From Antedon mediterranea (Eukaryota > Echinodermata > Crinoidea > Comatulida > Antedonidae): a stretch of 64,000 nucleotides of DNA. Below the pieces are notes generated by a model. It saw only the letters and a program-made list of their open reading frames with translations, was not told the DNA's origin and ran no database searches. The DNA is taken from the NCBI RefSeq assembly GCF_964355755.1, contig NC_092678.1:20122922-20186921 (forward strand). The letters run 5' to 3'. Both the position numbers and the translations under genes were made by a program. Positions 16,714 through 59,500 of the stretch are shown one piece after another (position 1 is the first letter of the stretch; every line of letters starts with the position of its first letter).

Positions 16714-17835
16714 TCAATGGAAAGACGGCTTTTTAACAATAAAACATTCTAAATCATGACCGTTCTCCCAGTGCGCTCTTTGGCATGCTTCATTGCAGTA
16801 TCTACACAGCATGCACCTCGAGCAAACTTTTAAATGATTATTCCTATCTTCGGCTTTTCCACAGTCATTCCACGAGCACCAATGCACCATTTTAATAGTA
16901 GGGTTTCTATATATCAACCTATCCCTTTTAGTTCCTGGAAAACCAATAGGATAAAAACGTTTATAGCATCCTTTGGCTCGTCTTAAATTTTCTCCTATTC
17001 GCGCAATAAGTTCAGCAATGTGTATACCCGACTTCAAAGTCGGGTCGATAGCAACAATATACGCCCATATACCGCTTGCAGCTCGCATTACCCGACAGTC
17101 GTTTAGAGACGTTACTGCTACGCTGTTTCCACTCTCTGCGATGCAGTCAATGATTTTTAAACAAATCTCGGCTACGAATATATTCTTTGTTGTTGTCACC
17201 AGTTTTGTTATGGTATTCACAAGCCCGGAATGGCACGATACAGCGATGTGCTGAGGATCATTTGTGAAAGCTAAGGCGTTGTGAAGAAGCGCGAGAGCAG
17301 ACACCATTATCGCCTGCGTACGGTTATAACCGATATCGCTTGTCGGTGAATCAAGGTCCGTCGAAACTGCTGGCTCTGTTTCTTTCTGCAAATGCAAACA
17401 ATTCAGACAGATTTCGTTTAGTACTGGAAATAGTTCGCTATCCATGTAACAGAGACGCCTCGAAACTGGTTTGTACAGGCTAGACATCCATAAAAGACGA
17501 AGAACATTATCAATTTTAAGATCGTCTGGTGAGAACTGTGATCCGCGACTCACGAGGTACTGCGTACTGTACTGCAGAACCTTTTCAGACAAACGTTGAA
17601 CAATTTGGCAGTATCTGATCATATTAACCGTCGCTAGTTCATCCATGGCGTCCAGTAATTGCAGTAACTGCCACTGGTCCTCCATATTTGCTGATCGCAG
17701 ATGGCGGGCAAAGTTACGCACATGCGCGTCGACTTCACCAGACAGTAAAGCTGCTAACGTTTGCTCGTGCAGGAACGACGGTCGAATGCCTGATATCGGC
17801 GTCGTACATGTACTGTTTGTGTCAGCTGAGGCCAT
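16714..17835 (-). CDS. MYND-type zinc finger protein, 373 aa
   Basis: A single open frame with an ATG start. The C-terminus (residues about 320-364) is a MYND zinc finger: an initial Cys pair (C-x4-C, slightly wider than the usual C-x2-C), then CSRC, RYC, NEAC, the QRAHW segment, a His and a final DLEC. MYND domains bind proline-rich partners and sit in transcriptional regulators and methyltransferases. No SET domain is present. Residues about 20-300 are predicted helical and weakly ARM/HEAT-like, with many Leu/Ile/Ala repeats, suggesting an adaptor protein. Upstream on the minus strand, a pyrimidine-rich acceptor (TTATTTCAG) at about 17976 could close a 5'UTR intron. Codon use is far less A+T-rich than the flanks. 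I cannot assign an orthologue. Intronlessness could mean retro-origin or a lineage-specific gene. Confidence 0.85.
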   Translation of the reverse strand: MASADTNSTCTTPISGIRPSFLHEQTLAALLSGEVDAHVRNFARHLRSANMEDQWQLLQLLDAMDELATVNMIRYCQIVQRLSEKVLQYSTQYLVSRGSQFSPDDLKIDNVLRLLWMSSLYKPVSRRLCYMDSELFPVLNEICLNCLHLQKETEPAVSTDLDSPTSDIGYNRTQAIMVSALALLHNALAFTNDPQHIAVSCHSGLVNTITKLVTTTKNIFVAEICLKIIDCIAESGNSVAVTSLNDCRVMRAASGIWAYIVAIDPTLKSGIHIAELIARIGENLRRAKGCYKRFYPIGFPGTKRDRLIYRNPTIKMVHWCSWNDCGKAEDRNNHLKVCSRCMLCRYCNEACQRAHWENGHDLECFIVKKPSFH

Positions 17836-18330
17836 AGCACTGGTTCCACGCGGTAAATAGCCATTGGCAGCCTAGGCTGCTCACACGTTTAAACAGAATT
17901 CGTATTGTAAAGCTGAATGTCCATCCTAAGAAAAATTGTTTATTGCATTTTTGCCTTCGTCAGCGTTCGAGCACCTGAAATAAAAAATAAATAATTGTTA
18001 CATCACGTTTCATGGTTTCCTTAGTTACTAGTTTCACGTTCCAGAACCGTGTCACTGCTGACTATTACCCTTAACAATGTAGCAGACTTATTTTACGTTT
18101 AGGTATGTTTCGTAAACAATGTTGTCCCCGATTACTGTCACTCTTAATTGTTTTCTATAAATTAAGATTCATTGGCGTATTGATAGGATAAATAATCAGA
18201 ATAGGATTTTTCGAATGCCTGCAATTACGGCCTTGAGTAATTGATTAGGCCTGGTTCTCATTCCATTCTGCGCATCTGCGCAAACGCGTAAGTTTTCAGC
18301 GGCTGTATTATAGAACAGTAGTTGAAACAT

Positions 18331-29969: not shown

Positions 29970-32040
29970 ATGAACACGAGAAAGATAATCAACACATTTG
30001 AGGCAATATATTGTGTTATATTACTTTCGTCCTGTCACCAAAAATTGGCAGGTTCGAATCAGTTTACATGCGAGCATGTAATTTATTACGCAGAATGCTA
30101 TATGTATCAATAGAAAGTTCCTTTAATTTCTAAATTTATATAATATTACTTTATTAAATATTAATAATGCTATCAAGGATAATGGATAACATACTGTAGA
30201 CGTAATCCGAAGTGAAGTATTACAACTTACCGTTGAATTGATTCCACACGTTTTCTCTATCTGTCATCCCTTCAAAAACATTTTCAATTTACGAGACCAG
30301 ACGGCAATTTGTAATCGCCTGCACTCTACCTGGACACAATAGGTTAATCCAGTATTTATCAAGTGCAACAGAATAAAGTTGTTTTTTTTTTCAGCAACAA
30401 TCGTTTTCGTAAATTTCCTCTTCGTCAAGAATTGATTACAAAATGGTGCAACAGTATTAATTCCGAAAGGTTAGGCCTAATGTTGACGAGGATGCAATCA
30501 TGAAATGAGAACAGTGCCTATCAAGTCTCGTGGCGGTATTCCAGATATGTTTGGTATGTTTAGGCCTATACGAGCAAAGCCGAGTAGTTCCATCTCCGCA
30601 TGAGTGTTGCCTGAAACGAGAGAACAGATGCAATGCATATAGAAATTAATTATTTCATAACCTTCTCGTTATTATTGTTAACGCCGATGCGAGCGAGTTT
30701 ATTATGGAGTATATTGATTCTGTACCAACGTAAAGAAACTCGCTCGCTCGTGTGTATCTTATCGTGTAAACGAAAAGCGAACAGTAATCCTTACATGCTA
30801 AAGATAAGAATGAAACATCTATCGACTTTATTCCACGAGAGCTGCAGCCGAGTAACACTTCGAGTACTCCCGAAGGATTCGCGGGCTTATGGAAATTAGC
30901 TATGACGTCACTACCCGCTGGGACGCCAAGGTGATATCAGAAGTCATGTATTATCAAATTCGTAAATTAAAATAATGAAAGTGTTTTAATAAAATCATAG
31001 ATACGATAATACGTTTTTAAAAAGATTATAAATTATGAAGCGCATGAATATATTACATTTTATGCAAATTCAAACGATTAAGGGTACTTAGCTACGATCA
31101 AAGTAATTAAGAATACGATCTAGTGAATGCAAGAAGTAGGCAAATGGTTTACTGTAAACATTTATTTTTACGACCTAAGGCGTATTGTTGCTGTATTTCA
31201 ATATTCGCGATACAAAAATATTTTTAGATTAGGCCTATTGTTAAAAATTGCAAAGAGTCTGTAACCCAATTTATATTTTGCGGATATTAATGTTTGCTAT
31301 TTTATAAAATCATCAACGTTTTACGCGGTCTTTGATGTGTCACAATAATTTCATGATTTTGATAAAAAATATTATTATTAAGAATCCATTTATTTTCTTA
31401 AAGGTAAAAGGTAGGCCCTAAAGGTAATTATCTTAGTCCTCAAGCTTATGGAACTGAAGAGATTCGGATTAGGCCCTCTACGGACCCACGGCAGCCAGAA
31501 GTTTAGCGCCTACCACCAGATCAGCACACCGGGAGACGATCCCCATCTCTTTTCGAATAGTGTACTAAGTTTTTTAACGTGCACTGTTAAGTACACGGGA
31601 CCTTTATGTTGGTCGCGCGGTGCGCAGATATTTTGCCAACGTTGTCATGTTCCAATTTTATGTATAAAAGGTGTTTATTGTGTTCATTTTCTAAATTTCA
31701 CTGGGCAAATTCATTCAATAAAAGTATACCCAAAGTAAGGATCATACAAAAACAAACGGTGCATGCTGGGATGAGGTCTAAATGTATTTCGGAAATCTGT
31801 AGACTCTTAGTATACAACTGTGTGAATTGATGATAAGCACGCTCCCCTGGGTTATCAATTTAAACAAAATAAATAAATATTACAGTATAATGTTAATAGT
31901 AGTTCTACCTCGCACTATTCATGTGCATGCGTTAAGTTATGAGTGATAAAACAAAAGTACAGTTACGTAATAGTAATAGTACAATTCAGCCCTCTGTAGT
32001 TGTATGTCTTTCGAGTTTAGGGAATAATCAATAATGTGCA
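29970..32040. other. Gene-free stretch upstream of TUSC2
   Basis: No gene can be supported. At 31525-31620 the sequence CGGGAGACGATCCCCATCTC, TTTTCGAATAGTG and ACACGGGACC resembles a phrase I remember as repeated across marine animal genomes, so this may be an old dispersed element. The identity is uncertain. Confidence 0.4.
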
Positions 32041-32052
32041 CAACAAGCAAAC

Positions 32053-32101
32053 AAATATGGCGGCTGGCTCGCGGAGAGGAAGCGTATCACTCATCGCTTA
32101 A
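32053..32101 (+). promoter_or_regulatory. YY1-like initiator and short uORF of TUSC2
   Basis: AAATATGGCGGCTGG resembles the YY1/initiator word found at many housekeeping-gene starts. Its ATG (32057) opens a 14-codon upstream ORF ending at 32101, about 110 bases before the TUSC2 start codon. The role is inferred from motif and position only. Confidence 0.4.
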
Positions 32102-32209
32102 TTTATTAACTCATTAAGTAATTATCTTGTTATATAAAGTTATTTTTAGACGAATGACAGAAATACGGAAACGAGATAATAAGACTACTAATATATTTGG
32201 TTGACGTTC

Positions 32210-32403
32210 ATGGGAGGCTGGGTTTCTGTTGTATGTATAACGATGTGGAAAACGTTCATCTCTGGTCCAGCCCGCTGGCTGAAGAGAAAAACACTTCGCA
32301 GCAATGGCAATGGAGATGATTCGCCTCCGCCCGGTAAAGATAAACGCAACAATAAATCGCTAGCTCGTGCAAAGGCTGCCCCATGGGTGAGGAAACGGAG
32401 AAG
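32210..32403 (+). CDS. TUSC2: TUSC2 exon 1
   Basis: Encodes residues 1-64 plus two bases of codon 65. The donor AGAAG/GTTAGT ends in phase 2. An in-frame read-through ORF continues only nine codons into the intron, which supports the splice site. This N-terminal half is poorly conserved in the family except for the myristoylation start and basic patch. Confidence 0.85.
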
Positions 32404-35400
32404 GTTAGTTTATCAACATGATTGTATTTAATGTATGCCAACATTTAAAAATGTATGAACAATCTTTGACTAATAATTATTTACATTTACATATAATTAA
32501 CAGTCTAGCTAGGCATCTCTCTCTAGGCTAGGTAGTGGTAGGGGCCTAGCCTCTCTATTATATTATAGGCTGGTATGATAGAGAATAGATTATTCTAGAA
32601 ACTAGACTAGGCTAGCCTATCTTTAGGCTGCTGTAGTTAGCGTAGCTAGTATCTACAGTACAGTAGTCCAGTCTATTATAAGGACTTTCCTAGATAGATA
32701 GATTGAATAGAATATTTTCACCTACAAATTAGGCCTAGGGTAGGGGGTGCGGTACTCGGACGGTTAACACTATAATGTACACAATTGCTAAAATTGTACA
32801 TTTAGACAAACTTTTAGAATTTTAATAGAAACTTACAAATATAACTGTAATAATAATTTAGTGTCGCCAAAAACAGCAACTAAATTCATATCTAGAAGGG
32901 CCCTGGATTACCTAGGCCTTCAAGGATCGGTACTCGGACGCGTTTTTTGGTACTCGGACGCCCTCAATGTTTTGTTTATATTTCACATTATTTCATTAAA
33001 AAAAATTTTTTTTTTTTTAAATATACAAATATAATCATTTTATTCTTTATATTTACAAAAAATTATTTATAATATTTGATTTTTATAGAGATATTGAATT
33101 ACTTTAAAAAATGCGATCCACTAATTAATTTTAGTGATTAATGAGCTTAATTCAATGTTTTTATATATAGCGCCACCTACTGTCCGACTTCTAAAACAGG
33201 GGTACCATTTTGGTTCTTGGTATTTGAAGCCCTCTATCAGCCATATCCACGTGTAGCGTGTAGTATTAAAATCAAATTTTGGGTTACTTTTATACATTTT
33301 AAATAAGTTTGGTGTAGATTTTATAGACCTATGACCTTATAAGTTTCTTTAAAAACCCAAAATCACGTGTGACCTTGAACTTTACCTTACATAAATTATT
33401 GGTTTTAGAAGCGATGTTCATGGAAAATTGTAATTTTTTTTGGTTACCCAGCGACGTGACATCGGTAATGAATAATTCATGAGGAAAAATTATTTGATTG
33501 GTCAATATTTTATACATATTCATAAGTAAACAGTGTCACGTGGCCGACTAACAACAATGTCCGAGTAGCGCGCCCTCTACCCTAGGCCTAATGCTTTTCT
33601 TTTAATAATAATTAATATATACTTTATTTTACAGTTATTTTTATAACAAAAAATGTGTAGACATTTTTACATTGTTTTTGTTTTGCATTTTTAACTCTAC
33701 CAAGCACAAACAGGAAGATCCCTTTTATTTACAATCTTTACCTCAACTCTCCAATTTTTACTGACATCACTGCGGTGACAATTATATGTCTTTTGTGTCT
33801 AATTATTGCATATAATTATGACATTTAAAATCATGTTCTTTTACAGCAACATCATGTCAAGATGATTTATACACAATAATAGTCATTAGTTAATAAAGAA
33901 TGTCCTTAAACTTGCTGTACAAAATCTCTTAGATGTTGTGTGGGTGGAAGTTGGCAATGTCCAATATAATGTCATTAGTCATTCTAAGTAGCAGTAGCCT
34001 GTTCACTATTTATGACTTTTAAAATACATTTAAAATGCATTGTTTATTAATAAAAATGTCAATTCTAATTACTTTTAAAATGAATAACGTTGTATGTACC
34101 CACTTCTATTAAAGTATTATGATGTCATGTCAGGGATGAGTTGAAAAATAGATTTAACCTTGCCTTGGTTGTTTACTTTTAGAATTGAATATTTTCATTA
34201 ACCTCTGCCAAAATACTATCAAACTTTATGTGCAAAAACAAATTTGATGTGCCCATGGAAATGATGATGTCATGTCACTACCATATTTGGCTACATTACA
34301 CTCTACTTTTTCTTTCAAAACTAGTTTGATAGTGTAGACAGAGCTTTAGGCTTACCATTATTTGATGGTTTTAAGATTTGGATGGCGCTTGACAACAAAT
34401 TCCACATTGGTTCCTGTCTTAGTAACTGATTCCCAAAGATGGGATATCACCCAAGGATAAAAAATGTTGCCTTTACTCATGTGAGTCAATTAAACAACAT
34501 CCCCCCCCCCTCACTTTGTTTTGCCATTCAAAATTACCAGTGTATGCTTTGTTTTATTTTATTCAATGCATAGCCAACATAGATCAAGACCTCTACTAAC
34601 TCTGCTGGCGATGATGAAACAGAACAATGAATGCAATGAACCTTGGTGATCTTTTACCCCATCTTAAACTTAAACCCTATGATACAGTAGGCTAATAATA
34701 GTAGATTGATACTGTACTATAGAGATGCTTTTTGGATGTTAATTTTAAAAATAAACTTATGTCACATTTTGACAAGGAGCATCCTGTGTCCACTCTGTAC
34801 AAAGTATCATCAGTTCTCCTTCAGATGTAATACTTTGTGTGATATCAGACTTTTCATAGAAAAGGGGAAATTATATTACCGTATTGACGCGGGTATAAGC
34901 CCACCCCCCTTGAACATGAAATCACGTAAAGTTTGGGGGGTGGGCTTATACCCGAGGATCCAAAAATGCAGATCGTCAAAAACAGCACATGTACACTGTG
35001 TATTCCACCATGCGAGCGAGCGCCCTCACGTGTACGACGTTGCCTCTAAAATACACGAGGTGTAGAGTGTCGGAAAATTTAGCTTATAGTTCGTGTAATT
35101 TATCGTAGAATACCTTATTTTAAACATCAATTGAACAAGAATTTATCAAGCAGAAAACCAAGTATACAATGTTCATTAAATAGAAATTTAATAAGCTTGT
35201 TTATGGCAGCCGATACCAAATAGTGGTTTTCCGTTTTGGCGACTTGTAGCGTCGTGTGTGAAGCGATCTTCGACCGCAATGGAGTGTAAACAAAACAGGA
35301 CTGCTAGGCCTCATATGGCCTAGCGTATATTAGCCTAGCTTGGTTATGATCAAAGGTAGGTGTATTCGGTGTATGGACGTCGCCAAATACAAAATAATGT

Positions 35401-38400
35401 ATTACGACACACACTGTAGATCTTCGAATTAATGGGTGAGCTTATACCCGAGTGCCTAATTTTTCATGAAAATTAGTCAAAAGTCGGGGGTGGGCTTATA
35501 CCCGAGTATGGGCTTATACCCGCGTCAGTACGGTAATTACAATAATCAGGTCTAATTACAGTACTATTGGTGCCATTTTAATTTTGTTGGTAGGTTTCAT
35601 GGCGACATATCAGAACAGTATTTTAACTGATATTCTGGGTTACGGTCAAGCATCAAATGTCAATGGCTTACAGTTAGATAACCATTAGCTGGACAGATGT
35701 GATTGTGAGAAAACATTGAACGTACTACAGTATACAGTACATCCCCTACTAACTGTACTAATGTGGTATTATTATTATTACTGTCTGTACAGTATAAAGA
35801 CTAATAAAAAAAAAACGTTATTAGGTTTAATAGCATACTGTAAACATTAAGAACAAAAATTATCTGCTTAAAAGTAGACCCGTTATGTTTATTAATACTG
35901 TGCAGTGTTGTATGTGCAGAAGTACTATATATACTGTACAATTGTTTTTTCAATTTTTATTTAATTATAGATCTTTATTAAATACTTTGATTAAATGATC
36001 AGCAATTGTTGGATGGATTCACCCTCATTAAATATGGTAATATAAAAAACAGTATATGTTATTATTGTTATAAGTACTGTATGAGAGGTAACTGGCTCAT
36101 TTTAATTACCTACAGCGAAATTTATTTTGCTTAAGCTACCGTACCCTTTCCCTGCATTTTTCCTTATTGCAATGTATTGATATTATTATTAGTATTATGC
36201 TTCAAGTCGAAAAATAAACGAAATGATTCTACTAGTGCTACTAAACAGAACCTACCTTGTTTTTTGAAAGTTGTAATTAACCAATAGGGTTATATCATAC
36301 ACCCTAATAACTATTATATTTCCCTGTGGAGAGATAACAGAGTTGTACATGCCTCCAAATGCATTCCCTATATGAAAGTAACATGAACGGCATTGTTATT
36401 AGTATTACTACAGTATACAGATTGCATGCACATTGTCTGCTGCTCCATTAACAGATCTATCTTCATCTTAATAACCAGTGAACCGGAACAAACGTGGCTC
36501 TATACCACCAACAAGCAAGACATTGATTTTTTATAATCAAATAAGTGTTGCAGTGATTGTATTACACGAATGCGAAAGGTTACATCTGTTAACAATGTAT
36601 GTACATTTGTTGTGTCACCAGTGGATGATAACTTAACTCCTTGCAAAAATAAAACTAGGTCAACATTGGAATGAGTTTTATTGCACTGGCTTGTTTTGTT
36701 TTAAATAATTGGGGGTCACCCAATTGGGGATTTAACCTTGGTGACCATACTTGGTAGTGTAACTGTAACTTACCTCTGAAAACCTAAAACTCTCCCAAAA
36801 CTGGAAACTCTCCACAAACCGGAAACTCTCCAAAAACCGGAAACTCTCCAAAAACCGGAAACTTTCCAAAAACCGGCAACTCTCTAAAAACCGGAAACTC
36901 GCCATAAACTGGAAACTTTTTCAAAACTGGAAACTCTCTCCAAACTGGAAACTCTCTCCAAACTTGAAACTCTCTCAACACCGGAAACTCTCCTCTGCTT
37001 TAATTTCTTTTTCATTCAGTTGGTTAATAAACTCCACAATGCTTTCAGTGAGATGGAACAAATGTTTATTGACGTTTGTAGCGACATCAAATATTAGTTC
37101 AGAGTCGTGTCAAGGAGTACTCCACTCCTGTGTATTTATGTACCTAATCAACTTTAGATATTTACTCTACCGTCATGTGTATGATACAATGTTTAATACG
37201 CATGTGTACAAGCAAGTGTACCATGTAGATTGTCATGTCAGCTTGAAGATCATTCTCGTGCCCAGTAACGCATTTAAGGATAACATTCTCTTCATTCCAT
37301 CTCTCCAGGTTTCTTGCTTTATAGTTACTCTACCGTTATAGATGATACAATGTTTAATACGCGTGACTCGTAAGCCTACATAATGTACTACAAGCAAGTG
37401 TACCATGTAGATTGTCATGTCAGCTTGAACAACCTCATATGGATGTTCTATCCATCTCTCTTGGTTTTTTGCTCCTGTTTCTACCTCCATCCCTGATCTC
37501 CACCCCGTTTCCATTCTTTCCTGGTCAATTGGTCATCTCCAGTCCACGTCATCTTAGGTCTGTCTTTCTTTTCTTTGCCATGTCATTGTCGGCGCAATTC
37601 TGCTTTTGTCGTTTGCTAGTTTTAGCACATGTCCGAGCCATTTCCACTTCATCAGTGTGATTTCACTGCTGGTTTTAATTACATTACAATGACTTTTGTA
37701 AAGTAAAATATAGTTAAAAACCTATTAGTAATAGCTATTTTTTTTTACCATATTTAATGGGGATGATCCATCCAGCAATTGCTGATCAATAGGGACTCTC
37801 AGAGGATCACAAGACAAACAATACACAAGATGCTCTACATAAACAAAATCTTATTACAAGTCTTTGAGAGTGGAGTTGTAATTTTGTCCTTGGAAAAATC
37901 CTGACATGTGACGAGACTTGAACCCATGACCCTCCACTCTAATAGTAACAGTTTGATGCATTCACTGTTTTGTACCAGCACAAAAAAATCTCCTATCTGT
38001 ATATCAAACTTTTGAATTTTTATTTTCTTTTTTTTTACGTCAGAACATTTTTTTTCTTAAATTGTTATTGTTTTCCTTTTCCTTTTCAGTAACAGAGTAC
38101 AGTAAATTATGTGACATTTGAGAAGTAATTTTCATATCCATACTTGATAAAAACATGTTTCTAATTTCCATTATGAGCAGACTGTTCTAATTATTTTCCC
38201 CCTAAAACATATTGGAATGTATTTGTGTTTTTGTTTTTGGATTGTAATTTCGGCAAAATAAGATGAATGTTAAAGGGAAAACAGAATACAATAATCTTTC
38301 AACACATTTTCAAAATTAGAGTTATTTTTTTCAAATTCAAAACACTGACGATTGTTTAATATTTTCGGAAATAACATTTGCTTATTGTACTCATTGTAAC

Positions 38401-41400
38401 CACTATAGGCAATGAAATATTGTTCTATATTTCAGTATAGAAATGACAGAATTTGCCTATGATGTTTTTACATACAGTAACACAATCGGATACGGTGTGT
38501 ATTATTTTTTTCTGATCAAATTTATTTAAATTAATAGTTAATACTTTTAATAGAAACACAAACCATCCTGCCATAAACAGAAAAAAATGGAAACAAATTG
38601 TGGAAAGCGTAATGTCGGAAGACGGAAAACGTTAGCAACTAACTAATACTTTTTTACTTTTTAATTTAAAGATGTATTGTCCTGCAAAAACATGAAAAAT
38701 GAAGATTAATTTAAAAAGACTTTGAATAAGCAATTTTTGCAGTTTTAATGTTAATCACTTCTGTAGAAAAAAAACAAACAAAATAAGTGGTTATAAATTT
38801 AACCAAAATCCATTCACTTTCACTTCAGTCAATTTGGCCTTTTTTGCGTTAAATTACAGTTTTTTTCAGGTAAATAAGTTTTTTTCCAATTTTTGGTCAA
38901 AGTGAATACAGTAGAACCTCCATTTTACGTACGGTACGGGACCGAAAGGCGTACGTAAAACAAAGGATTCGTAAAATCAAGGTTGACCTTAAATTGACCC
39001 CAAATACGTAGAGATCGTAGCTGGCCGTGTTTGCCTTCTGTACATTATGCAGGTGGTCACTAGCTAGGCCTTGCTTAGACTATTCAGGCCAGGCTAGCAG
39101 GCCTAGCAAGATGTGAGGCCTAACTAGAAAAGTACAGTCTATACAGGCTGTGCGATGTTTAAAAAATATAATTGTTTTCTATAAAAAAAAACAGTCGCTG
39201 CTTTATGGGGAATGCACGTGCGTAGCTTGTCCCACACACAGCAGAATTCCTCACACAGCGATACGGGTTGGGTAGGTTTGGCCAGTATGCGTACCTTTTT
39301 ATGGCCAGCGGGCGTCCCGGATATTGCGCAATATGGCCAGCGGGCGTCCAATTATTGCGTAATATTTTTTCAATGGCAGCGTCCGCGCGCTCCGTGCGTA
39401 TGAAATACGTACAATCCGACAGCAGAGGGCGTTATATTTAAATTTTCCACGTGAGATGCCGGCCGGCCACGTAGTATTATTATTTATCAGAAAAAAAAAA
39501 TTAAATAATGTGAACTTTCATTTATAATGTTTTTTGATTGACATTATAATAGTTTAACTATTAAGAATTATTGTTATTAATTAGGCCCTAAAATAATTTA
39601 TTAAATCAGTTTAGGGCTAGCCTGCTCTGAACAGATAGATAGGCTTTTAGAGGCCTCGGTTCAGGCTTGCCCTATACTTGCAAATGCTGTATATATAAAA
39701 TTAATTATGTATATAGCGCTCTCTGTCAAATTGTACGTATTTCACACGCACGGAGCGGACGCTGCCATTGAAAAAATATTGCGCAATAATTGGACGCCCG
39801 CTGGCCATATTGCGCAATATCCGGGACGCCCGCTGGCCATAAAAAGGTACGCATACTGGCCAAACCTACCCAACCCTGTAGCACACAGCCATGCTTGTGG
39901 CTTTGTGTGCTTTGTTGTTGTTAAATTGCGCCCTCAATGTAAGAAAATGATGACGTCATCGGTTATTTTTAGCGTACGTAAAATCGAGGGAACGTAAAAT
40001 CAGGGTACGTAAAACACAGGTTCTACTGTAACTACTATGTGACATTAAAATGGCATATTCAACAAAAACATTAATTTTAAAACAAATTATTTTTTCAGGG
40101 GAGACAATATATCTTTAAACCTTGCAAAATATGAAATGTTAGTTATAATATTAAGGAAAATTATTCTATTGGCTCAAACAGTAGGCCTACTTCTGTTTAT
40201 TGTTAATGTATCTTTAACCCTGACATAGATCTTCAGCATTTTATGAGCAATGATAGTTCAATATTCACAATTATCATATTAATTGTAAAGTAATTCTTAA
40301 CAGTTGTGAATTTCAATTATTTTTGTGCAGTTATTTTTCGAAATTGAGCATTTATTAGACCTTGTAAAGTTGATGCCATAAATCAAGCTGCTAAACATAT
40401 TCAGAATTAGCGACAAATCTCTCGCTTATCTACTCCTTCCATTATTCATTCAATTTTGTATTGATGTGTCTTGATTTTGTGCCTCTCTTTTTGCATATTT
40501 TTAAAGGGTTTCACTAGGATTATAATTGTACAGTAATTAAAACACACAACATTTAATCACTTAACAACCTTGATATTATGCAAATAATGAATGTTTATGA
40601 GTTGAATAGTTAGAATATTTCATAAGTTGAAAAATAGAGCAGTTTTTCAAGGAATGAAATATTCTCTCCATTCAACGAATACAAAACATTAATTATTTTT
40701 TGTAACACATCTACTTGTATTCAATTTATTCATCGTAAATCATTGACAAATGCTAGGCCGGGAAAGCTAGGCCATTAAAAAAGGCAGTGGTCCAACCTTA
40801 GATGCGGAGTAGATTGGCGCACACAGCAAGTTGAATTCCGAACGTGATCAGTCAATAACGTCGTGTAGCAAATAGTTTTCAAAATGTTTACAAAAGCTGA
40901 ACGTGCATTAGAGCTGAGCTGTTCATTATCACCATTTTAGATATCACTTTTCCATGAGATAGTTCCAAATAACACCTGATGCGTAATTAACCAATCAAAT
41001 TGCATGAATACAATCATGTGCTAGATATTACCTGGGGTGATAATAATACTTTGTATTTTTATCGAAATTTTTACAAATTAAAATGAAGAAAAATCAGAAA
41101 AGCAAAAGGTTTTTATTTAAATTATTAAAGAAAAGAAGAAACACAATTACAAAAGTCTATGTTAGCAAATGTCAGCTATGATAGAAATCTAAAGATATTA
41201 ATAGCTGTAGTACTTTAGTACCCTAGAGGAATAAGTACTGTGGAGATCTACATAATATCAAGGACAATATAATATGATAAGCAGGATGCTATTAGCAAAT
41301 TAAATGAAATGATTCAACAACAAAATATGAATATTATGTAAATAAAAACAAGATGTTGTAGCACGATAGCAAAGCATACTACATTACCACCAACCATTAT

Positions 41401-44247
41401 ACAATACATGAGCCCCTTATTTAGAACACATGGGGATAACCCTCATGGGGAGACACTTGCCTATGAAATTAGGGAGAATTTGTTGTGACGTTTATGGGCA
41501 AAACAAAAGTGATGTGCCCATGGACATGATGATGTCATAGCACTACCATATTTGGATATATCATTACCATGTTTGGGCACATCACACTTTTTACAAAAAA
41601 AACTAGTTTGATAGTGTAGACAGAGCTTTAGGCTGCTTTATTGTCCCAGTGTCTTTAGTATTTGCATATTTTATAGCTCACTGAAAGGAATAATATAATA
41701 TTTAGTTATATTTTGTTTTGTTCAATGTGTTAAGCCTACACAATTATACTGTGACAAAAAAAAATGTGATGTCCATATATGGACATGATGATGTCATATC
41801 ACTACCATATTTGGGTATATCATTACCATATTTTGTTTTGTCCTTATAGTTCAATGTGTTACGATGAAGACGGGCACGTTGCTCATGAATTTTACGTGGA
41901 AGATTCCGACAAACACAACGGCAGAAGGAAAGTTGGTATGAAGCGTATTCTAGCAAACATAAAGCCTTTGGTACGTATAACGATAACAAATTTATTATCC
42001 TTTGGCAGGGCTGAGCGAACCCACTTGCCCGACGCCCGGGACAAGTGGTTTTTACGGTCGGACAACCACATTTAACGTATCCTCTTGTCCGAGGACAAGC
42101 ACTTTTGAAATTCAGGAAATTAAACTAAGAACACAGAAAACCATGTGCCAACACAGTTAGCCATGTGCATTAATACAAATAGCAGGCTTCTTCAAAGCAC
42201 ATTAAACCCAGTGCATTTAATACATCACTGATTGGTCAATGACCTGAGTCACATCATTATAGATTACACGATTTTCTATTTAGGGAGGTAATGAAAACAT
42301 TTTTGGACCATGCAGTGGTTGAGACATAGGTTAACTGGGTAATTAAAAAAATGCCCAGTTAAAAAGAACCCCCGTAATTAATGGACTCTACCAGGTATTG
42401 TTGATCAAAAATACCATGCATCAAGATGGAAGCTGTATACACGCGAGGAGGTGGTAGGCCCAGTATTTTAATTTTTCTCTGTACATCGTGCATGAAACGG
42501 ACAATTGATAAAGTGGTTTCATAGGGAAAAGAATGTTTTTTATAAATTTACCTGTGAAATGCAACAAGCTATTTTATTTAGTGAATTGGATAATAACAAA
42601 AACATCCTCTCTCCGTCCGTTGTAAGAGTAGGAGGCCTAACTTCTAGAGTAAGGATGGCCTGGGGCCTGGAGGTATTTTTCTCTCTCTCCATGGTGACGG
42701 TCTAAGGCCTAGTGTCTGGATGGCAAGCTTTAATTAGTAATTGGGCCTAGCCAGACCTACATTAATTCGGTATTATTTGTTAACTAATTATGCCTGGACA
42801 AAATAACAATTATTTAAAAAAATAATTTTAATTATGCCTGGACAAAATAACAATAACAATTATTTAAAAAAATAATTTTAATTATACCTGGACAAAATAA
42901 AAATTATTTAAAAAAATAATTTAAATATACCTACTATCTAGCTAGCCGGCATAGCTACAGTAGGCAAAGATCACTTCACGACTAGGCTATGATACGTTTG
43001 TATATAATAGACACCACAGTTTTTTTGGTAATTCAATTCTTTTATTTTTTATTTACTAACTACTATTTATTAATTAGGCCTACAGTACTCTACACACTGT
43101 TGTGTTAATAAAATAAAACCTAAAAATGACCGTTATTTTTATCAAAATATTGAGCAGGCTAAAAAAGTCTAGGCTAGGCCTATAAACTGCTGAATTTTAA
43201 ATAGACAATAAACACTTGAGTGACATTTGTCGACACTTGTGTAATTTTTTGCCTATTGCGCAATAAAGAGGGACAAGTAAATTTTTTTCTCGGACAAGTG
43301 AATTCCGTGCAGGTACTTGTCCGGGGACAAGTGAAAGAAATTGAAATTCCCTCACCCCTGTTTGGACATCCCTATTCGCACCTTGTGAGACCATGTAGTG
43401 TTGGATGATGGACTACTGATTAACTGCACTGAAATTTAATATCAATTGTATGTCTATGAATAGCCACATCCCTGGATGCCTACAATACAGCATAGTTCAA
43501 TTTAAAATTAAAATGAGTTTCTCAGTAGAGTTGACAGTAGCAATAGACAATCAGCACACTGCATACACAGTGGTCTAGCTGTAATTTATCTTTACCCGCA
43601 TGGGGTCTTGCTTTATTATTGTCTCATCTATTTTAATATAGAATGAGTTTCTCAATAGAGTTTACAGTAGCAATAGAAAATCTGCACACTGCATACACAG
43701 TGGTCTAGCAGTAATTTATCTTTACCCGCATGGGGTCTTGCTTCATTATTGTCTCATCTATTTTCATATAAAATGAGTTTCTCAATAGAGATCACAGTAG
43801 CAATAGATAATCAGCACACTGCATACACAGTGGTCTAGTTGTAATTTATCTTTACCCGCATGGGGTCTTGTTTCATCATTTTCTCATTCATTTTCAAAGT
43901 TTATGTTTTAATTATATTTATGTTTCACCTGTCTAGTGCATTACTGTAATGTCAGTTATTAAAGCACTCTACTCCATAGGGAGAGATTATATTGGATCCA
44001 CTGAGGTTACATGTCAGCCTACTGCATTATTTTTTATTGTGTACATTTCAATCTGACATTCTTAATGATTTCTTCATAAGAGGAGATTACATTGGATCCA
44101 GTGAGGTTACATATCAACATATATGTTTTTATTGTATCAATTTTAATCTGATGTTCTTTACTGCTTTTTTCTCTACAGGGAGAGATTGCATTGGATCCAC
44201 CTAGGTTACATGTGGATATGCCGTTTGTTCTGTGTGAGGTCACATGA
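32210..44247 (+). CDS. TUSC2: TUSC2 (FUS1) orthologue, three exons, 127 aa
   Basis: Join of 32210-32403, 41850-41970 and 44179-44247; introns are GT-AG and phases agree. TUSC2 is a small myristoylated protein linked in vertebrates to mitochondrial calcium handling and tumour suppression. The start MGGWVS fits the N-myristoylation consensus (Gly2, Ser at the fifth position from Gly), as in the human MGASGS start; this favours the ATG at 32210 over the ATG 11 codons later. The middle is basic (GPARWLKRKTLR, KAAPWVRKRR). The conserved core follows across the exon 1/2 junction: SMCYDEDGHVAHEFY, then NGRRKVGMKRILANIKPL, and exon 3 gives LDPPRLHVDMPFVLCEV, all aligning with the vertebrate C-terminal half. 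Length is 127 against about 110 residues in human. A poly(A) signal AATAAA lies at 44337-44342. Confidence 0.9.
32730..33590. mobile_element. Long inverted-repeat DNA element in TUSC2 intron 1
   Basis: The left end TAGGCCTAGGGTAGGGGGTG continues into CGGTACTCGGACG. The right end CGCGCCCTCTACCCTAGGCC is preceded by GTCCGAGTAG. The two are inverted repeats over about 33 bases. The phrase GGTACTCGGACG recurs inside at about 32930 and 32950 as subterminal repeats. It spans about 860 bp and has no ORF, so it is a non-autonomous element of unknown superfamily. Confidence 0.65.
34212..34348. mobile_element. Family A MITE, copy 7 (left end lost)
   Basis: The right end TAGTGTAGACAGAGCTTTA is intact. 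The left side starts within ACTATCAAACTTTATGTGC, missing the outer AAGCTCTGTCTAC. The interior has GATGTGCCCATGG and GTCACTACCATATTTGG. It lies in TUSC2 intron 1. Confidence 0.65.
34875..35537. mobile_element. Fold-back element with GCGGGTATAAGCCC repeats
   Basis: The left end ATTACCGTATTGACGCGGGT runs into ATAAGCCCACCCCC. The right end GGGCTTATACCCGCGTCAGT runs into ACGGTAAT. The GGGCTTATACCCGAG word also occurs near 34943, 35440 and 35490, so subterminal repeats are dense. It is about 663 bp without an intact ORF. Ends of the type TACCGTA followed by GCGGGTATAAGCC are common in DNA transposons of marine animals; I do not assign a superfamily. Confidence 0.7.
35540..36775. other. TUSC2 intron 1, unique sequence
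   Basis: A+T-rich intronic sequence. No gene, inverted repeat or array is seen. Confidence 0.5.
36779..36992. repeat. 18-bp minisatellite (CCGGAAACTCTCCAAAAA)
   Basis: About eleven units of CCGGAAACTCTCCAAAAA with scattered changes. On the minus strand the period gives an uninterrupted Phe-Pro-Val-Phe-Gly-Glu hexapeptide repeat of 65 codons, which is an artefact of the array. It lies in TUSC2 intron 1. Confidence 0.85.
37080..37430. repeat. Direct duplication of a ~95-bp segment
   Basis: The block at about 37160-37246 recurs at 37323-37428. Shared phrases are GATACAATGTTTAATACGC and ACAAGCAAGTGTACCATGTA, then GATTGTCATGTCAGCTTGAA. The second copy has a short insertion (GACTCGTAAGCC) in the middle. 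Confidence 0.7.
37240..37690 (-). pseudogene. LINE reverse transcriptase C-terminal remnant
   Basis: On the minus strand, KWKWLGHVLKLAND is followed by an RIAPTMTW stretch and then, through stops and frameshifts, by DQLTRKEWKR-type and QERWIEH-type sequence. This matches the well-known tail of RTE/craniofacial-development-protein-2-like LINE ORF2 proteins (WLGHVLR, GRP.TWRR, DR..WR). It is an old broken fragment within TUSC2 intron 1. No catalytic domain remains. Confidence 0.6.
37885..37985 (-). mobile_element. tRNA-derived SINE remnant
   Basis: On the minus strand, GAGTGGAGGGTCATGGGTTC followed by AAGTCTCGTCACATG contains a B-box-like GGTTCAAGTC in the usual SINE context. The A box is not convincing, so no tRNA gene is claimed. 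Confidence 0.5.
38907..40030. mobile_element. Tigger/pogo-type non-autonomous element
   Basis: The left end TACAGTAGAACCTCCATTTT continues to ACGTACGG. The right end ACGTAAAACACAGGTTCTAC continues to TGTA. These inverted repeats have the pogo/Tigger word CAGTAGAACC, bounded by TA. Comparison with the empty family C copy (GTGAATAACTATTATG) shows TA duplicated on insertion: GTGAATA on the left, TAACTACTATG on the right. It is 1,124 bp with no transposase ORF. A second inverted repeat is nested inside. Confidence 0.85.
39266..39877. repeat. Nested long inverted repeat inside the Tigger-like element
   Basis: The arm 39266-39431 (GGTTGGGTAGGTTTGGCCAG, GGCCAGCGGGCGTCCCGG, GCGCTCCGTGCGTATGAAAT) is matched in reverse complement by 39713-39877. 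The loop is about 280 bp. GGCCAGCGGGCGTCC occurs twice in each arm. It is either a separate fold-back element inserted in the Tigger-like one or an internal part of that element's long termini. Confidence 0.75.
40120..41480. other. TUSC2 intron 1, unique sequence
   Basis: A+T-rich intronic sequence with no recognisable gene or bounded element. Confidence 0.5.
41483..41630. mobile_element. Family A MITE, copy 8 (left end lost)
   Basis: The right end TTTGATAGTGTAGACAGAGC continues to TTTA. The interior carries GATGTGCCCATGGACATGAT and two CACTACCATATTTGG-like units. The left AAGCTCTG terminus is absent. Confidence 0.65.
41708..41861. repeat. Duplicated exon 2 acceptor region flanking a family A fragment
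   Basis: ATATTTTGTTTTG-TTCAATGTGTTA at 41708-41732 recurs at 41828-41861 as ATATTTTGTTTTG-TCCTTATAG-TTCAATGTGTTA. The second copy is the real intron 1/exon 2 border of TUSC2. The first lacks exactly the nine bases that hold the splice acceptor. Between them (41750-41827) is a family A fragment with TCCATATATGGACATGATGA and ACTACCATATTTGGG but no termini. Confidence 0.7.
41850..41970 (+). CDS. TUSC2: TUSC2 exon 2
   Basis: The acceptor TCCTTATAG and the donor TTTG/GTACGT bound 121 bases encoding the family core SMCYDEDGHVAHEFY and the basic NGRRKVGMKRILANIKPL segment. The first base completes a codon split with exon 1. The exon ends in phase 0, matching exon 3. A transposon begins 35 bases after the donor. 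Confidence 0.9.
42006..43370. mobile_element. CAGGG-ended DNA element, possibly hAT-like, in TUSC2 intron 2
   Basis: The left end CAGGGCTGAGCGAACCCACT and the right end GAAATTCCCTCACCCCTG are inverted repeats at their tips (CAGGGgTGAG), each followed by palindromic subterminal CTTGTCCGAGGACAAG-type repeats. The five bases TTTGG directly flank both ends, a candidate target duplication. At 1,365 bp with no transposase it is non-autonomous. CAGGG tips suggest hAT, but hAT usually gives 8-bp duplications, so the class is tentative. A threefold 50-bp repeat (GCCTGGACAAAATAA, TTATTTAAAAAAATAATTT) lies inside at 42778-42925. Confidence 0.65.
43508..43900. repeat. Three tandem copies of a 130-bp unit
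   Basis: Units start at about 43510, 43640 and 43770 with AATGAGTTTCTCAATAGAG and share GCACACTGCATACACAGTGG, CTTTACCCGCATGGGGTCTT and TTTCTCATTCATTTTC-like ends. They are over 90% alike by eye, so the array is recent. It lies in TUSC2 intron 2, just before the duplicated exon 3 segments. Confidence 0.85.
43980..44178 (+). pseudogene. Two decayed tandem copies of TUSC2 exon 3
   Basis: Copy 1 (43980-44080) starts after an AG (CTCCATAG) with GGAGAGATTATATTGGATCC and AGGTTACATGT. Copy 2 (44081-44178) reads AGGAGATTACATTGGATCCA and AGGTTACATATC. Both match exon 3 (GGAGAGATTGCATTGGATCC, AGGTTACATGTGG) for about 45 bases and then diverge. The segments between copies are also alike (TTTCAATCTGACATTCTT and TTTTAATCTGATGTTCTT). 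So a unit of about 100 bp, intron end plus exon start, was triplicated. Copy 1 keeps an AG acceptor and the exon 3 frame, staying open to 44204; copy 2 has lost one base. Confidence 0.8.
44179..44247 (+). CDS. TUSC2: TUSC2 exon 3 (terminal)
   Basis: The acceptor TTTTCTCTACAG is stronger than those of the two upstream copies. The 22 codons give GEIALDPPRLHVDMPFVLCE-VT and stop, aligning with the vertebrate end (LDHPRIHVDFPVILYEV). Only this copy keeps the complete HVDMPF...CEV tail. The poly(A) signal AATAAA follows 90 bases after the stop. Confidence 0.9.
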   Translation, partial: GEIALDPPRLHVDMPFVLCEVT

Positions 44248-44336
44248 TATTGGCTGATATGAAAGTTATCTTTTGATGGTCAAAGTTTTGCTGAAGGGAC
44301 TTCTTTTAAAATGGCTAAATGCCATAGAATCAAAGA

Positions 44337-44342
44337 AATAAA
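44337..44342 (+). terminator. TUSC2: TUSC2 poly(A) signal
   Basis: Canonical AATAAA 90 bases after the TUSC2 stop codon, followed by a T-rich region. This implies a short 3'UTR. Confidence 0.5.
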
Positions 44343-44654
44343 TTGATAATATATATGTATATATCTCTGTACATAAGAACTTAAAGCTCATTTTTATGTA
44401 CTGTACACACCAGTTCAGCTGTGTTTTTTCACATTTTTTCATCCCATATTGTCGTTCGTTCTGCTCTTTTTCTACCCAGCCAGTAATTTTATGATCTGTC
44501 AAGCTATACCAAGATCAACCCATCCTATATCCAATAGTATGGTTGTTTTCTGTCATGAATACCCACCCTTTTTTTTATTACATTCGTCAGTCTATTAGTA
44601 TTTTATTGCAATACCAGTAACAATATTGGCTCATTGCACCATACAGATGCTGGG

Positions 44655-44968
44655 TGGTTGTTTTCCATTCCCGGAGTGGTTGTTTTCCATTCCCAGGGTT
44701 GTTGTTTCACATTCCCAGGGTTGTTGTTTCATATTCCCAGGGGGGTTGTTTCATATTCCCAGGGTGGTTGTTTCATATTCCCAGGGTGGTTGTTTCATAT
44801 TCCCAGTGTTGCTTGTTCATATTCCCAGTGTTGCTGGTTCCTATTCCCAGGGTTGCTGGTACATATCCCCAGGGTTGCTGGTGCATATCCCCAGGGTTGC
44901 TGGTTCCTATTCCCAGGGTTGCTGGCTCCTATTCCCAGGGTTGCTGGTTCCTATTCCCAGGGTTGTTA
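44655..44968. repeat. 21-bp minisatellite (GGTTGTTGTTTCATATTCCCA)
   Basis: About 15 tandem units of GTTGTTTCATATTCCCAGGG type, shading into GTTGCTGGTTCCTATTCCCA. The period is divisible by three and lacks stops, so all three plus-strand frames are open for 111-141 codons. None is a gene. It sits downstream of TUSC2. Confidence 0.9.
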
Positions 44969-49260: not shown

Positions 49261-49805
49261 TTAGTTTGGAGAATAAGTGGGAGGAATGTGACAGTGGATG
49301 AGCGCCAGATATAGTCCTGATAGCTTTTTTTGTAAGATAGAGAGTTTAATGATGTTTGTATGGTAAGTGTTGGCCCAGACAATGTTACCATAGCTCAAAT
49401 AAGGAAGGATGAGTGTGCAATAAAGGGTCCTGAGAATATTAGTTGGGAGGAAGGAAGAAAGCCTAGAAATGATCCCAAGGTTCTTAGACACTTTGTTCTC
49501 AATTTCTTGGATATGGGGTTTCCATGAGAGAGAGTTGTCGATGATAATGCCAAGAAATTTATTATACTTTACAGAGGGGATTTCTTGATTATCAATAACG
49601 GCTTTAAGTGGGGACACTTCAATACCTCTAGTCAACTGCGGGGTTCCGAATAGGATGTAACTACATTTATTATGATTGAGGGAGAGTTTGTTGGCAATAA
49701 AGTACTGGGACAAGGGGATAACGTTGGTATTAAAGGTGTCAAAAAGAGTTTGGATATTTTTGTTGGCATGAAAAACTGTAGTGTCATCAGCATATAGAAA
49801 AACAT
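49261..49805 (-). pseudogene. LINE reverse transcriptase, YADD box and thumb
   Basis: The frame is open from upstream of YADDTTVFHANKNI through LSLNHNKCSYILFGTP, KYNKFLGIIIDNSLSW and LPYLSYGNIVWANTY. A frameshift in a run of A near 49330 moves the conserved AIRTISGAHPLSHS continuation into another frame. No ATG is expected here because this is the middle of ORF2. Confidence 0.8.
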
Positions 49806-50372
49806 TTAGCAGGTTCGGTGGATATCATTAATGTAAAGGGTGAACAGAAGAGGGCCAAGTAAGGAGCCCTGGGGAACGCCACAGGTGATAGGGCAAAAAT
49901 TAGAAATAGAGTTAAAATATTTAGTACATTGGGAGCGGTTAGTGAGATAGCTTTTGAAAACGTTTAAGGCGGGTCCTCGGATTCCATAGTGAGACAATTT
50001 AAAAAGAAGAATATTATGATCAATGGTGTCGAAAGCCTTGGAAAGGTCGATGAAAAGTCCGATTCCAAATTGACGATTTTCGAATGCATGAATAATTTTG
50101 TTAGTGAGGTCGATCAAAGCCATGGAGGTGTTATGTCCTTTTCTAAAGCCATATTGTCTCTTGAAGAGGATGTTATGTTTGCTGATAAATGAAAATGTTC
50201 TATCATAGATAACTCTTTCCAAGGCTTTCGAAAAGATTGACAGGATGGAGATAGGACGATAGTTAGAAAGGTTGGATTTGGGGCCAGATTTGTAAACAGG
50301 GGTAACGCGCGCCAGCTTCAACCTGTTCGGAAAAACACCTTTGCAGAGGACAAGATTAAAAATGTGACACAA
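49806..50372 (-). pseudogene. LINE reverse transcriptase domain, 5' part
   Basis: The 188-codon frame covers RT palm and fingers up to just before the YADD box. Visible motifs are [51 protein letters not shown] and [13 protein letters not shown]. It ends at a stop after INDIHRTC, and the catalytic YADD lies in the next frame, so this copy cannot make active enzyme. Confidence 0.85.
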
Positions 50373-51575
50373 GGGAACGGAGACAAGGTTGATAACATGT
50401 TTAATGGCTTTAGTATGGAAATCATCAGTACCAGGAGCTTTATTGTTATCGAAGGAGGAGATAATTCTTATGATATCATCTTCTAGGACGGGGGTTGGTT
50501 AAGAACATTGATTTCGGATTTGGTTGAGGAAGAAATTCTTTGAAAGAAACATTGCTGGGAGGGATTTTGTTAGCAAGGGAGGGTCCGATTTCGACAAAAA
50601 AATCATTAAATGCTTTAGAAATAATGACGGGTCTTTAGTTGGTACTCCGTTACAGTTGACAGGGGTATTGCCTTTGTGTTGGTTTCGGTTTTTATGGTTC
50701 AATAAAGAGTTAATTGATTTCCAGGTTGCCTTAATATCATTTTTTTGCTTGGTGAAAATATCATGAAAGTGGATTCTTTTGGCAATTTTGATAGTGGAGT
50801 TAAGTTTATTACGATATCGTTTATATTTGATTTCATTGGCAGGAGAAGGGCGGTGAAGAAATTTTGCATAGCGTTTATGTTTATACTTTATTGATTTTAG
50901 CAGTCCATTGACATCCAAGATTTAATTTTTTTGTTCTTGTTTGTATTGTTCCTTTTCAGTAACGGGAAGTGTTGGTCATAAAGGGCTTTAAGTGTGTTAT
51001 CAAAGAGGTCATAAGCAAAGTCAGGATCATTAGAATTAAGGATATCAAACCAAGTTTGATTAGAGACATCATGGTAAAAGTTGTTAAGAGACGTATTGTT
51101 AATCTGTCTGAGAGATGGGATCTCTTCATTGTTTGAGCTGTAGTGGCAAAACTATCAGAGAGGTTTGAAATATTAAAAACAGGGAGATGATCAGAGATAT
51201 CACTATATAGCAGACCACTTATATGAGAACAATCAAATTGATTTGTAATAATATTATCTAAATAATGAGGCAGTTCGTCGACTATACTGTTCTAAGTCGT
51301 CGATCTTGTCCATCATGGTTCGGTTTTCTGCTACAAGATTTTCATTTTCGCGGCGAATTATATCAATGTCGCCCGCAGTTGAGGCGTTGTCCATGGTTAC
51401 GCTGTTGTAAACAGATTCCGAGACCGCGTCTAAAATATGTTTACTAATTGCAGAAATTAACACTTTGTTGGTTGTTATGGCTCTGTCGTGGTTGTTCGCA
51501 GAGCGCCATCTATTGTTGTGACGTCACACCGCAGAACTCTATTTTTTGATGATCATTCTGGTATATTCTTTGCTC

Positions 51576-56500: not shown

Positions 56501-59500
56501 CTGAAATTCAACATAAAATATTGTTTAAAAATGTTAAAATGTGAAAAAAATATATATATTGTGTTAATAAACTTTGTGAGTATTGTTAAATATTATTTTT
56601 CGTAAGTTTACATTTTTTTTATAATTCTACTATTTAAATTTATAATTGTAATCATATATTATTTTAATTGATTTTTGAAGCGCCAAAACTAAAAATTAAG
56701 CCTGTGCGTATTATGTGTTCGATTCCATTTCGAGCGCCGGGCCGGACGTAGACGCGGCTGCGCCTACAAGTTAAGTTACTGTATATAGGCCTAACGCCTA
56801 GATTTTTTTCCTTTTTTTTATTCCTGATATTTTATTACAAAAAATACATTACCGTAATACAAAATAATAACAAATATGATCCTCCGTCACCAAAGATTGT
56901 ATAGCGCCCCGGGCGTAAGATAGATAACTGCGCAAGATATTTGTAATCCCTTGGAGGCCATTCCGGCGGACAACTTTAAACCGGGTACTGTAAGTCGTTG
57001 TCAAGGCAATATTGTACTACAATGTTTTGGTCAAAGACGGAGTTGTCTAATGTCTAGTTGTCAATGTAAAGTAAACAAAGGAAACTTTTATTTTACTTGG
57101 TTTACTGTACATAATTTCTTCCCTTTTTTGTGAATCAACCCTCAAGATGGTTAACTACAGAAACTTCAAGGCGGACCGCAAAATTTGAACCATTTAGATA
57201 TTACGGTAAATCGAAATAGAAGGTGCTATGTTAAATGCATTAAAATGTGTCATTTTTGTTAAAACATGTTGAATTGTACAAAATAAAACCTCCAGAAATT
57301 AACTTGGGTTGGAACGTCTTCAAGTTGTACCTACTGTACAGTAGTTTGCTAGATATTATATCAACTGATCTGATTTAAGGCTAGTGTTTATCAAATTAAA
57401 TTAGTCGAAATGATGACACAGTAGGCTAAAACCTTTACCCAGCTGCAATTTTGTTTTCTAGAAAAGATCTGTTTGCAAAGATTTTATATGTCCTCCCGGA
57501 TATGAGTGCTGTGAGGATATAGATTTATGCGGTGGAGCTAATTGTCAACCATGTATAGGTATGCTATTTATTTAAATAATACGGCGTGGCTAGAGATACC
57601 GTACCATATCTTATGTTCTGGCTGCTAAATGTAAGTAAATGGCTTACGTCATGGCTATCTAATAATAAATGATTAGTTCGTGACTAATGTAATAATAATG
57701 TTGCTAGGTTGTCAACATGGCCCTAGGCTAGGTTAATTTAGCCTAGGCCTGGCCGTAGTATGCAGGGGCGGTCGCAGGACTATTTTAAGGGGGTTGCCCA
57801 AGGGTCACCAGAGGGCCGTAGATATTGAGTATTTGAATTTGTCATTTAACAAAAATTCGATGGAATTTCTCGCACATAAAATTCATGATAAATAGAAATG
57901 AGACTTTGGCTACAGTAGCAAACAGATCGTATCACGCCTGTTTTTTCCGCTGGGAAAACACAAGCGACAAACAATAGGCATTTTTTTCGTACAATGCGAA
58001 ATTCAAAGGAGATCCCAGACGAAGGTACTTCCGGTAATGTGATAGATTCTAGCAATTAAAATCATTAATACAATTATTATTATTATTAATTAATAATTAA
58101 AACAATTTAGAAAAAAAGGTGAAGCTGCATCATTTTTGTCTCATTAAAAAGATTCATTCGGTTGGAATTACAAATAAAATGTAATAGTTAATTATATCTC
58201 AACCGTAATAGTAAATAACGATTATTTATTTACTTGACGTTTCGCCCACTATCAGTTGGCTTTCTCAAAGTGTAGTGACACGTATGTCACAGTTGACCTC
58301 TAGATGACGGGGTCAACACATTGGTCCACACTTGAATTTGTACCCGCCCTCATCTCTATTAAAATTGGGGATCTTCCTGATCCAGATGGATTCCTTAACC
58401 CAGCGTCTTAATCTGCACTATGTTTGTGTTGCATGCTGTTTGGTGGTTTGTTGCACTGAATAATGATGTAAAAAATGAATTGCCATTCCTATTGGATAGC
58501 CATGACATACCATTTACCATACAGATAGAAGATAAGCCATATCTCTAGCCACAGCATAATAAATTAAAATATTATAAAATTATAGACTATAAGAAAGTTA
58601 ATAGCATTTATGATTGCTGCTCTTGGCAAGCAAATAATTGTTCAATTTTGTTCAGTCATTGTAGCATTTTGTTAGGAGCTTGGATGCATAGTAACACACT
58701 TTTACTTAATTTTCTTATCTCAATAGATGGCACATTCTCTTCTGGTAGAGAAATCTGCCAAAATTGTAGCAATTGCCTTCAAGGTGAAAAAATGATTGAA
58801 GTGTGTACTCGTACAAGTGACACGATTTGTGAATGCCCTGCTGGCAATTATATAACCAGTTATAGAGTCTGCAAGCCATGTAGCACATGCAGTGAGGGAG
58901 AAGACTGTGGAAAGTGTCAACTCACAATAACAATAAGATCAACGTTAATAACCGCAAAAACAGCAGTACCTGGTATGTTTCAAATGACCTCTTTTCTTTA
59001 GTATTCTTCTTTCTTTCTCACATATCTTTAAAATGTGTAAACATACATTTCACAACTTTGTCAAAATATGTATCTTTACATGTTTTGAAATTGCTATCTT
59101 TATATGTAGTATCGTCGTTGAAAATTAATTATTATATAATTATTTTCTTTTGGCATAATCTTTTTCTATTGTGCAATATTCTAATATGACATGCACGTGG
59201 TGTTTGTTCTGCTTCAAAGTGTTCAAAATCGATTTTTTTTTAATGTCTTCAATTTTGTTTTGTTGATTTGTCTTCAATTCATTATTTTATTTTGTAACAT
59301 TTTTTTTACTGCATATCGTTTGATTTATTATTTTTTATTTTACAGCAAGTGAGACGTCTATAGCCAAACATGGATCACCTTGTCAGTGCAACTGTAAACA
59401 AGATACCATGGTACCATGGTATTATCTGCTTCTAACGGCTGTTTGCAGTCCAGGTAATGAACTTACACTGTACTATGATTATAATATTGTATAATAATTC

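Follow-up and report, generated by a model that had tools for sequence, protein, structure and literature searches.

TUSC2 exons at the locus

We analysed a 64-kb window of the Antedon mediterranea genome (contig NC_092678.1; "the window" denotes this whole stretch, numbered from its first base), which carries on its plus strand the last two exons of TUSC2, a small gene conserved in animals, and in which a tandem triplication spans the boundary between intron 2 and exon 3 of this gene. Exon 2 (41850-41970, +) matches the TUSC2 family profile PF15000 with 40 codons that follow one leading base and end in phase 0, confirming the end at 41970 given in a preliminary description of this DNA, and scores 39.4 bits by itself. 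Intron 2, as used with the third copy of the triplicated unit, runs from a GTACGT donor at 41971 to a TCTCTACAG acceptor ending at 44178 (41971-44178, +). This third copy is the coding part of the genuine exon 3 (44179-44247, +), whose 22 codons and stop complete the end of the profile. Joined to exon 2 it yields 62 residues that cover profile positions 54-111 of 111 and score 71.6 bits, against a curated family cut-off of 25 bits; the product is thus a member of the TUSC2 family.

Across the 354-Mb genome, a TUSC2 family search (two candidates scored) returned a single match, exon 2 of the present locus, and a DNA search with positions 43900-44300 likewise returned only the locus itself. A second gene copy or haplotig was rejected on these two single-locus results, both from searches that can miss matches. 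For exon 1, two motif scans and the family search located no convincing candidate. Past exon 3, a motif scan places the first AATAAA at 44337-44342 (+). Some 310 bp downstream of this motif lies a 22-bp minisatellite of about 14 copies (44652-44967), across which all three plus-strand frames stay open for 135-152 codons.

A triplicated unit spans the intron 2/exon 3 boundary

An AG acceptor, the opening 35 bases of TUSC2 exon 3 and roughly 65 bases of intron make up the repeated unit, which is about 100 bp long and has copies at 43980, 44081/44083 and 44179. Tandem Repeats Finder reports it as an array at 43978-44211 (period 100, 2.3 copies, 76% matches), and a repeat finder resolves three copies at spacings of 100 and 99. 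These results and the alignments below agree with one another and with the preliminary description, which was right about the gene, the exon boundary and a triplicated unit of about 100 bp; its estimate of about 45 shared exonic bases was too high, the measured length being 35.

Copy 1 (43978-44014, +) comprises an AG at 43978-43979 and 35 exon-like bases (43980-44014), of which 31/35 are identical to copy 3. An intron-like stretch, I1 (44015-44080, +), separates it from copy 2 (44079-44112, +), where two AGs, ending at 44080 and 44082, precede 30 exon-like bases (44083-44112) identical to copy 1 at 28/30 positions and to copy 3 at 26/30. I2 (44113-44178, +) is the true end of intron 2 and holds the polypyrimidine tract and acceptor of copy 3, the best of the 123 AGs scored in the intron. 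The exact junction of copy 2 has been lost: its AG ending at 44082, which fits the acceptor proposed earlier at about 44083, is in frame (22 codons), and the AG ending at 44080 is out of frame (7 codons).

We evaluated likeness between segments against 2,000 dinucleotide-preserving shuffles by local alignment, with global P values also given for intron and tail comparisons. For each pair of exon-like segments, 0/2,000 shuffles reached the observed score, and the same held for I1 against I2, which are identical at 42/51 aligned positions with 3 gap columns. The sequence 5' of copy 1, I0, shows a weak likeness to I2 (P = 0.04 local, 0.0075 global), and its likeness to I1 does not reach significance (P = 0.43 local, 0.18 global), so that the earlier claim of an intron-2 end in all three units is clear for I1 and I2 and only faintly borne out for I0.

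The tail of exon 3 (T3) showed no likeness beyond shuffles to I1 (P = 0.64 local, 0.24 global) or I2 (P = 0.84 local, 0.88 global); the unit is therefore the end of the intron plus the first 35 exon bases, not the entire exon. Duplication of the full exon followed by decay of its tail was accordingly rejected. We also regard an assembly artefact as unlikely: the divergence between copies 1 and 2 is 7% in the exon part and 18% in the intron part, and a stitching error should yield near-identical copies. The head-to-tail arrangement of copies across the junction is a tandem duplication across an intron-exon boundary.

Copies 1 and 2 lack the conserved C-terminus

Spliced to exon 2, copies 1 and 2 score 46.0 and 42.2 bits, respectively, against PF15000, compared with 71.6 bits for copy 3, in keeping with the preliminary description that only the third copy retains the full conserved tail. 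Placed behind the same exon 3 head, which scores 55.9 bits with no tail, the copy 1 tail gives 56.0, the copy 2 tail 58.1 and the real tail 71.6 bits, corresponding to gains of 0.1, 2.2 and 15.7 bits. We take the 2.2-bit gain of the copy 2 tail as chance, and gains of this size, set against that of the real tail, indicate that neither copy's tail substitutes for the conserved C-terminus.

At three positions of a 30-base core, copies 1 and 2 carry a common base that differs from copy 3; two of these differences replace a proline codon of copy 3 by a leucine or valine codon. Leucine or valine at this site alone lowers the score of the genuine product from 71.6 to 65.2 or 65.6 bits, a cost of about 6 bits. 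As the profile prefers proline here, the state of copy 3 is most simply ancestral at that codon, and the loss shared by copies 1 and 2 suggests that their common ancestor had probably ceased to be under coding constraint by the time of the second duplication.

The acceptor of copy 3 scores far above those of copies 1 and 2

We scored all 123 AG dinucleotides in intron 2 from position 41990 on, using a matrix of 23 acceptors from the same genome, picked by eye from 30 of 56 chaperonin (PF00118) matches, a mode of picking that biases the training sites towards pyrimidine-rich ones. Seven of the 30 were dropped, four with no acceptor discernible at the start of the match (L003, L005, L028, L031) and three that were ambiguous (L014, L020, L025). 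A donor matrix was built from 21 sites, the nine others (L003, L004, L005, L010, L011, L016, L018, L028, L031) having no clear donor at the end of the match or being judged ambiguous (L018). In addition to the full-letter acceptor matrix, we used a pooled one, in which C and T were merged at positions preceding the last four bases of the intron.

With the full-letter matrix, the acceptor of copy 3 ranked first (11.8), the out-of-frame AG of copy 2 tenth (3.6) and its in-frame AG 30th (-0.5), with copy 1 only 49th (-3.6), under all 23 real sites scored by leave-one-out. With the pooled matrix, copy 3 again ranked first (12.0), copy 1 rose to 11th (5.3), and the AGs of copy 2 ranked 19th and 41st, the latter being the in-frame one. 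The disagreement over copy 1 arises mainly because its tract is C-rich; under both matrices, the acceptor of copy 3 is far stronger than those of copies 1 and 2.

These scores bear on the idea that copies 1 and 2 serve as decoy or regulatory acceptors, which would tune output by competing with copy 3 or by pairing through a palindromic core, TGGATCCA. Each of the three copies keeps this core (44093-44100 in copy 2) within its exon-like sequence, such that any two of them could pair in the RNA, and the predicted minimum-energy fold does pair copy 1 with copy 2. However, the fold of 43940-44220 (-64 kcal/mol, z = -1.29) is not unusually stable, 15/200 shuffles folding at least as well, and the predicted pairing is therefore no evidence of regulation. 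Moreover, under the full-letter matrix copies 1 and 2 are outscored by other AGs of the intron, including those inside an unrelated tandem array of three 130-bp units (43497-43896, +; found by Tandem Repeats Finder and the repeat finder), which score 4.1 to 6.5. Nothing in the acceptor scoring across the 123 intron AGs pointed to a specific decoy role, which we judge highly improbable.

We likewise considered whether copy 2 might supply an in-frame micro-exon of 18 nt (44083-44100, encoding EITLDP) and, after it, a new intron of 78 nt that runs up to copy 3; this would be a gain of an exon or an intron, comparable to intron gain by tandem duplication, in which the upstream copy provides the donor and the downstream copy the acceptor of the new intron. 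An AG does precede 44083, a GTGAGG stands at 44101 and the frame is kept, and in a potato gene a boundary-crossing duplication is described as having produced a new intron (PMC4974935). Yet the GTGAGG donor scores 2.4, under all 21 real donors (lowest 5.1, leave-one-out), the in-frame acceptor is only 30th (full-letter) or 41st (pooled) of 123 as given above, and inserting the micro-exon lowers the PF15000 score from 71.6 to 60.5 bits. Two further candidate donors, GTTACA at 44006 and at 44106, score 4.3 each, also below all 21 real donors; the score of the exon 2 donor is 5.9. Taken together, these values make a micro-exon exceedingly unlikely.

Copies 1 and 2 as probable remnants of two successive duplications

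We consider it very probable that copies 1 and 2 are the decaying debris of a two-step tandem duplication across the intron 2/exon 3 boundary, most likely spliced out. Two successive duplications over this boundary would have left two truncated copies 5' of the true exon 3, the first event presumably being the older one (likeness of I0 to I2 is faint) and the second the younger (likeness of I1 to I2 is clear). The pre-mRNA would then be spliced from 41970 to 44179, so that copies 1 and 2 would be removed with the intron, and any use of copy 1 would represent low-level cryptic splicing.

The principal rival to this reading is that copy 1 is a live alternative 3' splice site, through which the conserved C-terminus would be exchanged for a tail of about 62 residues rich in Phe and Cys. 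Copy 1 retains an AG and phase 0, and the frame that follows splicing to it (43980-44204, +) stays open for 74 codons (43980-44201) up to a stop at 44202-44204, bearing out the 70 or more codons counted in the preliminary description. The motif scan found no AATAAA or ATTAAA between copies 1 and 3; since the first AATAAA, at 44337, lies 3' of exon 3, a transcript spliced to copy 1 would probably have its 3' end in common with one spliced to copy 3, and no downstream junction that could trigger decay.

Several observations on copy 1 speak against its being mere debris. Its run of 74 codons is unique in length among the 123 intron AGs, none of the others reaching 74, and a frame of this length is mildly unusual. 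Its pooled score is respectable, 5 of the 23 real sites scoring lower, and at 5.3 it exceeds that of exon 2's own acceptor (4.3 pooled, 7.0 full-letter), taken as a control, so that on the pooled matrix copy 1 may still be usable. Finally, copies 1 and 2 differ at 2/30 exon-like and 9/51 intron-like positions, so that the exon-like parts appear to have changed more slowly, the direction expected under constraint; we treat this as a leaning, the difference not being significant (Fisher P = 0.20, or 0.076 when gap columns are treated as differences).

Against use of copy 1 stand its full-letter score, under that of every real acceptor, and the loss of residues favoured by the TUSC2 profile. The 62-residue tail, searched alone, matched no Pfam family at an E-value of 0.1, and a large part of it comes from translating T-rich intron, among it the polypyrimidine tract of copy 3: the Phe-rich portion (FYCINFNLMFFTAFFS) is I2, the polypyrimidine-rich true end of the intron, read as protein. 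Nor are frames of this length rare. Among AG-started frames open for at least 12 codons on both strands of the whole window, 134/2,751 (about 5%) reach 74 codons, as do 15/319 of the AG-started frames on the plus strand of 30000-43900. Given also that the 74-codon frame was noticed after the fact, we regard it as weak evidence for use of copy 1.

Overall, a live acceptor at copy 1 seems unlikely to us. Still less likely is the stronger proposal of a working, regulated acceptor giving rise to a second TUSC2 whose hydrophobic, perhaps membrane-seeking tail would have been born from duplicated intron. The preliminary description had left the choice between isoform, decoy and debris undecided; the acceptor scores, the lost residues and the rate of equally long frames favour debris. 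If copy 1 is used, the locus would add to a conserved protein (Tumour suppressor candidate 2 family) an isoform with a new C-terminus derived from intron sequence; if the copies are inert, it clearly captures duplications over an intron-exon boundary in the course of erosion next to an intact exon, such duplications being raw material that can give rise to new introns and alternative exons.

Tandem arrays in the surrounding genome

To place the triplication among other arrays, we took 11 arbitrary 9-kb pieces of the genome (99 kb in total) as a base-rate sample. Arrays with a period of 60-200 and a Tandem Repeats Finder score of at least 100 occurred at six places (seven rows, two of them overlapping) spread over 5 of the 11 pieces. 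The 64-kb window holds four arrays of this period range, one of which (period 66) is a multiple of a 22-bp repeat; a 1.5-kb stretch around TUSC2 exon 3 contains three of the four. Arrays of such unit sizes thus have a density of about one per 16 kb. With arrays this common in the genome, one that overlaps an exon boundary would be expected somewhere among its many introns.

A clustering of arrays is also evident around the last intron and 3' region of TUSC2, where four tandem arrays, with units of 44-50, 130, 100 and 22 bp, fall within about 2.2 kb (42785-44967). Under the same settings, the remaining 62 kb of the window contains two arrays with a period of at least 40.

Other features of the window

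Three further regions of the window were noted for their open reading frames. Three adjacent reverse-strand open reading frames occupy 49261-50921 (-); one of them (49261-49824) has a sub-threshold RVT_1 match of 20.8 bits (cut-off 29.6), and from this match we infer a putative retroelement remnant. An open reading frame of 385 codons at 16714-17871 (-) bears a MYND zinc finger at its C-terminus (28.8 bits). At 58549-59001 (+), an open reading frame contains a TNFR/NGFR cysteine-rich repeat (41.3 bits), and is perhaps an exon of a TNF-receptor-like gene.

Comparison with known systems

Among the papers listed by a search of the TUSC2 literature, none reported an acceptor duplication in this gene, which does not disprove that one exists. 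Three known systems involving duplicated exons or neighbouring splice sites resemble the present locus in part.

Tandem duplicated exons are described as a studied source of alternative splicing (PMC9741552, PMC9013439). Mutually exclusive tandem exons, as treated there, are like the TUSC2 copies in being tandem, exon-derived copies within one gene with potential for alternative use. In that system, however, each copy is a homologous version of the exon, whereas copies 1 and 2 of TUSC2 carry only 35 and 30 exon bases and lack the exon tail and a homologous C-terminus; they are not mutually exclusive exons in this sense.

Tandem alternative splice sites (TASS), defined as sites of the same type within 30 nt of each other (PMC8055015), share with our locus the presence of several candidate acceptors ahead of one exon, the others being weaker than the main one. 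Unlike these, the TUSC2 copies lie about 100 nt apart, beyond the 30-nt definition, and so fall outside the class.

A further parallel is the potato RdRp gene, for which a tandem duplication across an intron-exon boundary and the detection of a new intron are described (PMC4974935). There, as here, the duplicated segment runs from the last part of an intron into the exon that follows, so that acceptor signals are copied along with it, and the TUSC2 triplication is thus an event of a known kind, a duplication across an intron-exon boundary. The two cases differ in that a new intron was detected in potato, whereas TUSC2 has three copies and the three candidate donors scored in copies 1 and 2 fall below all 21 real donors.

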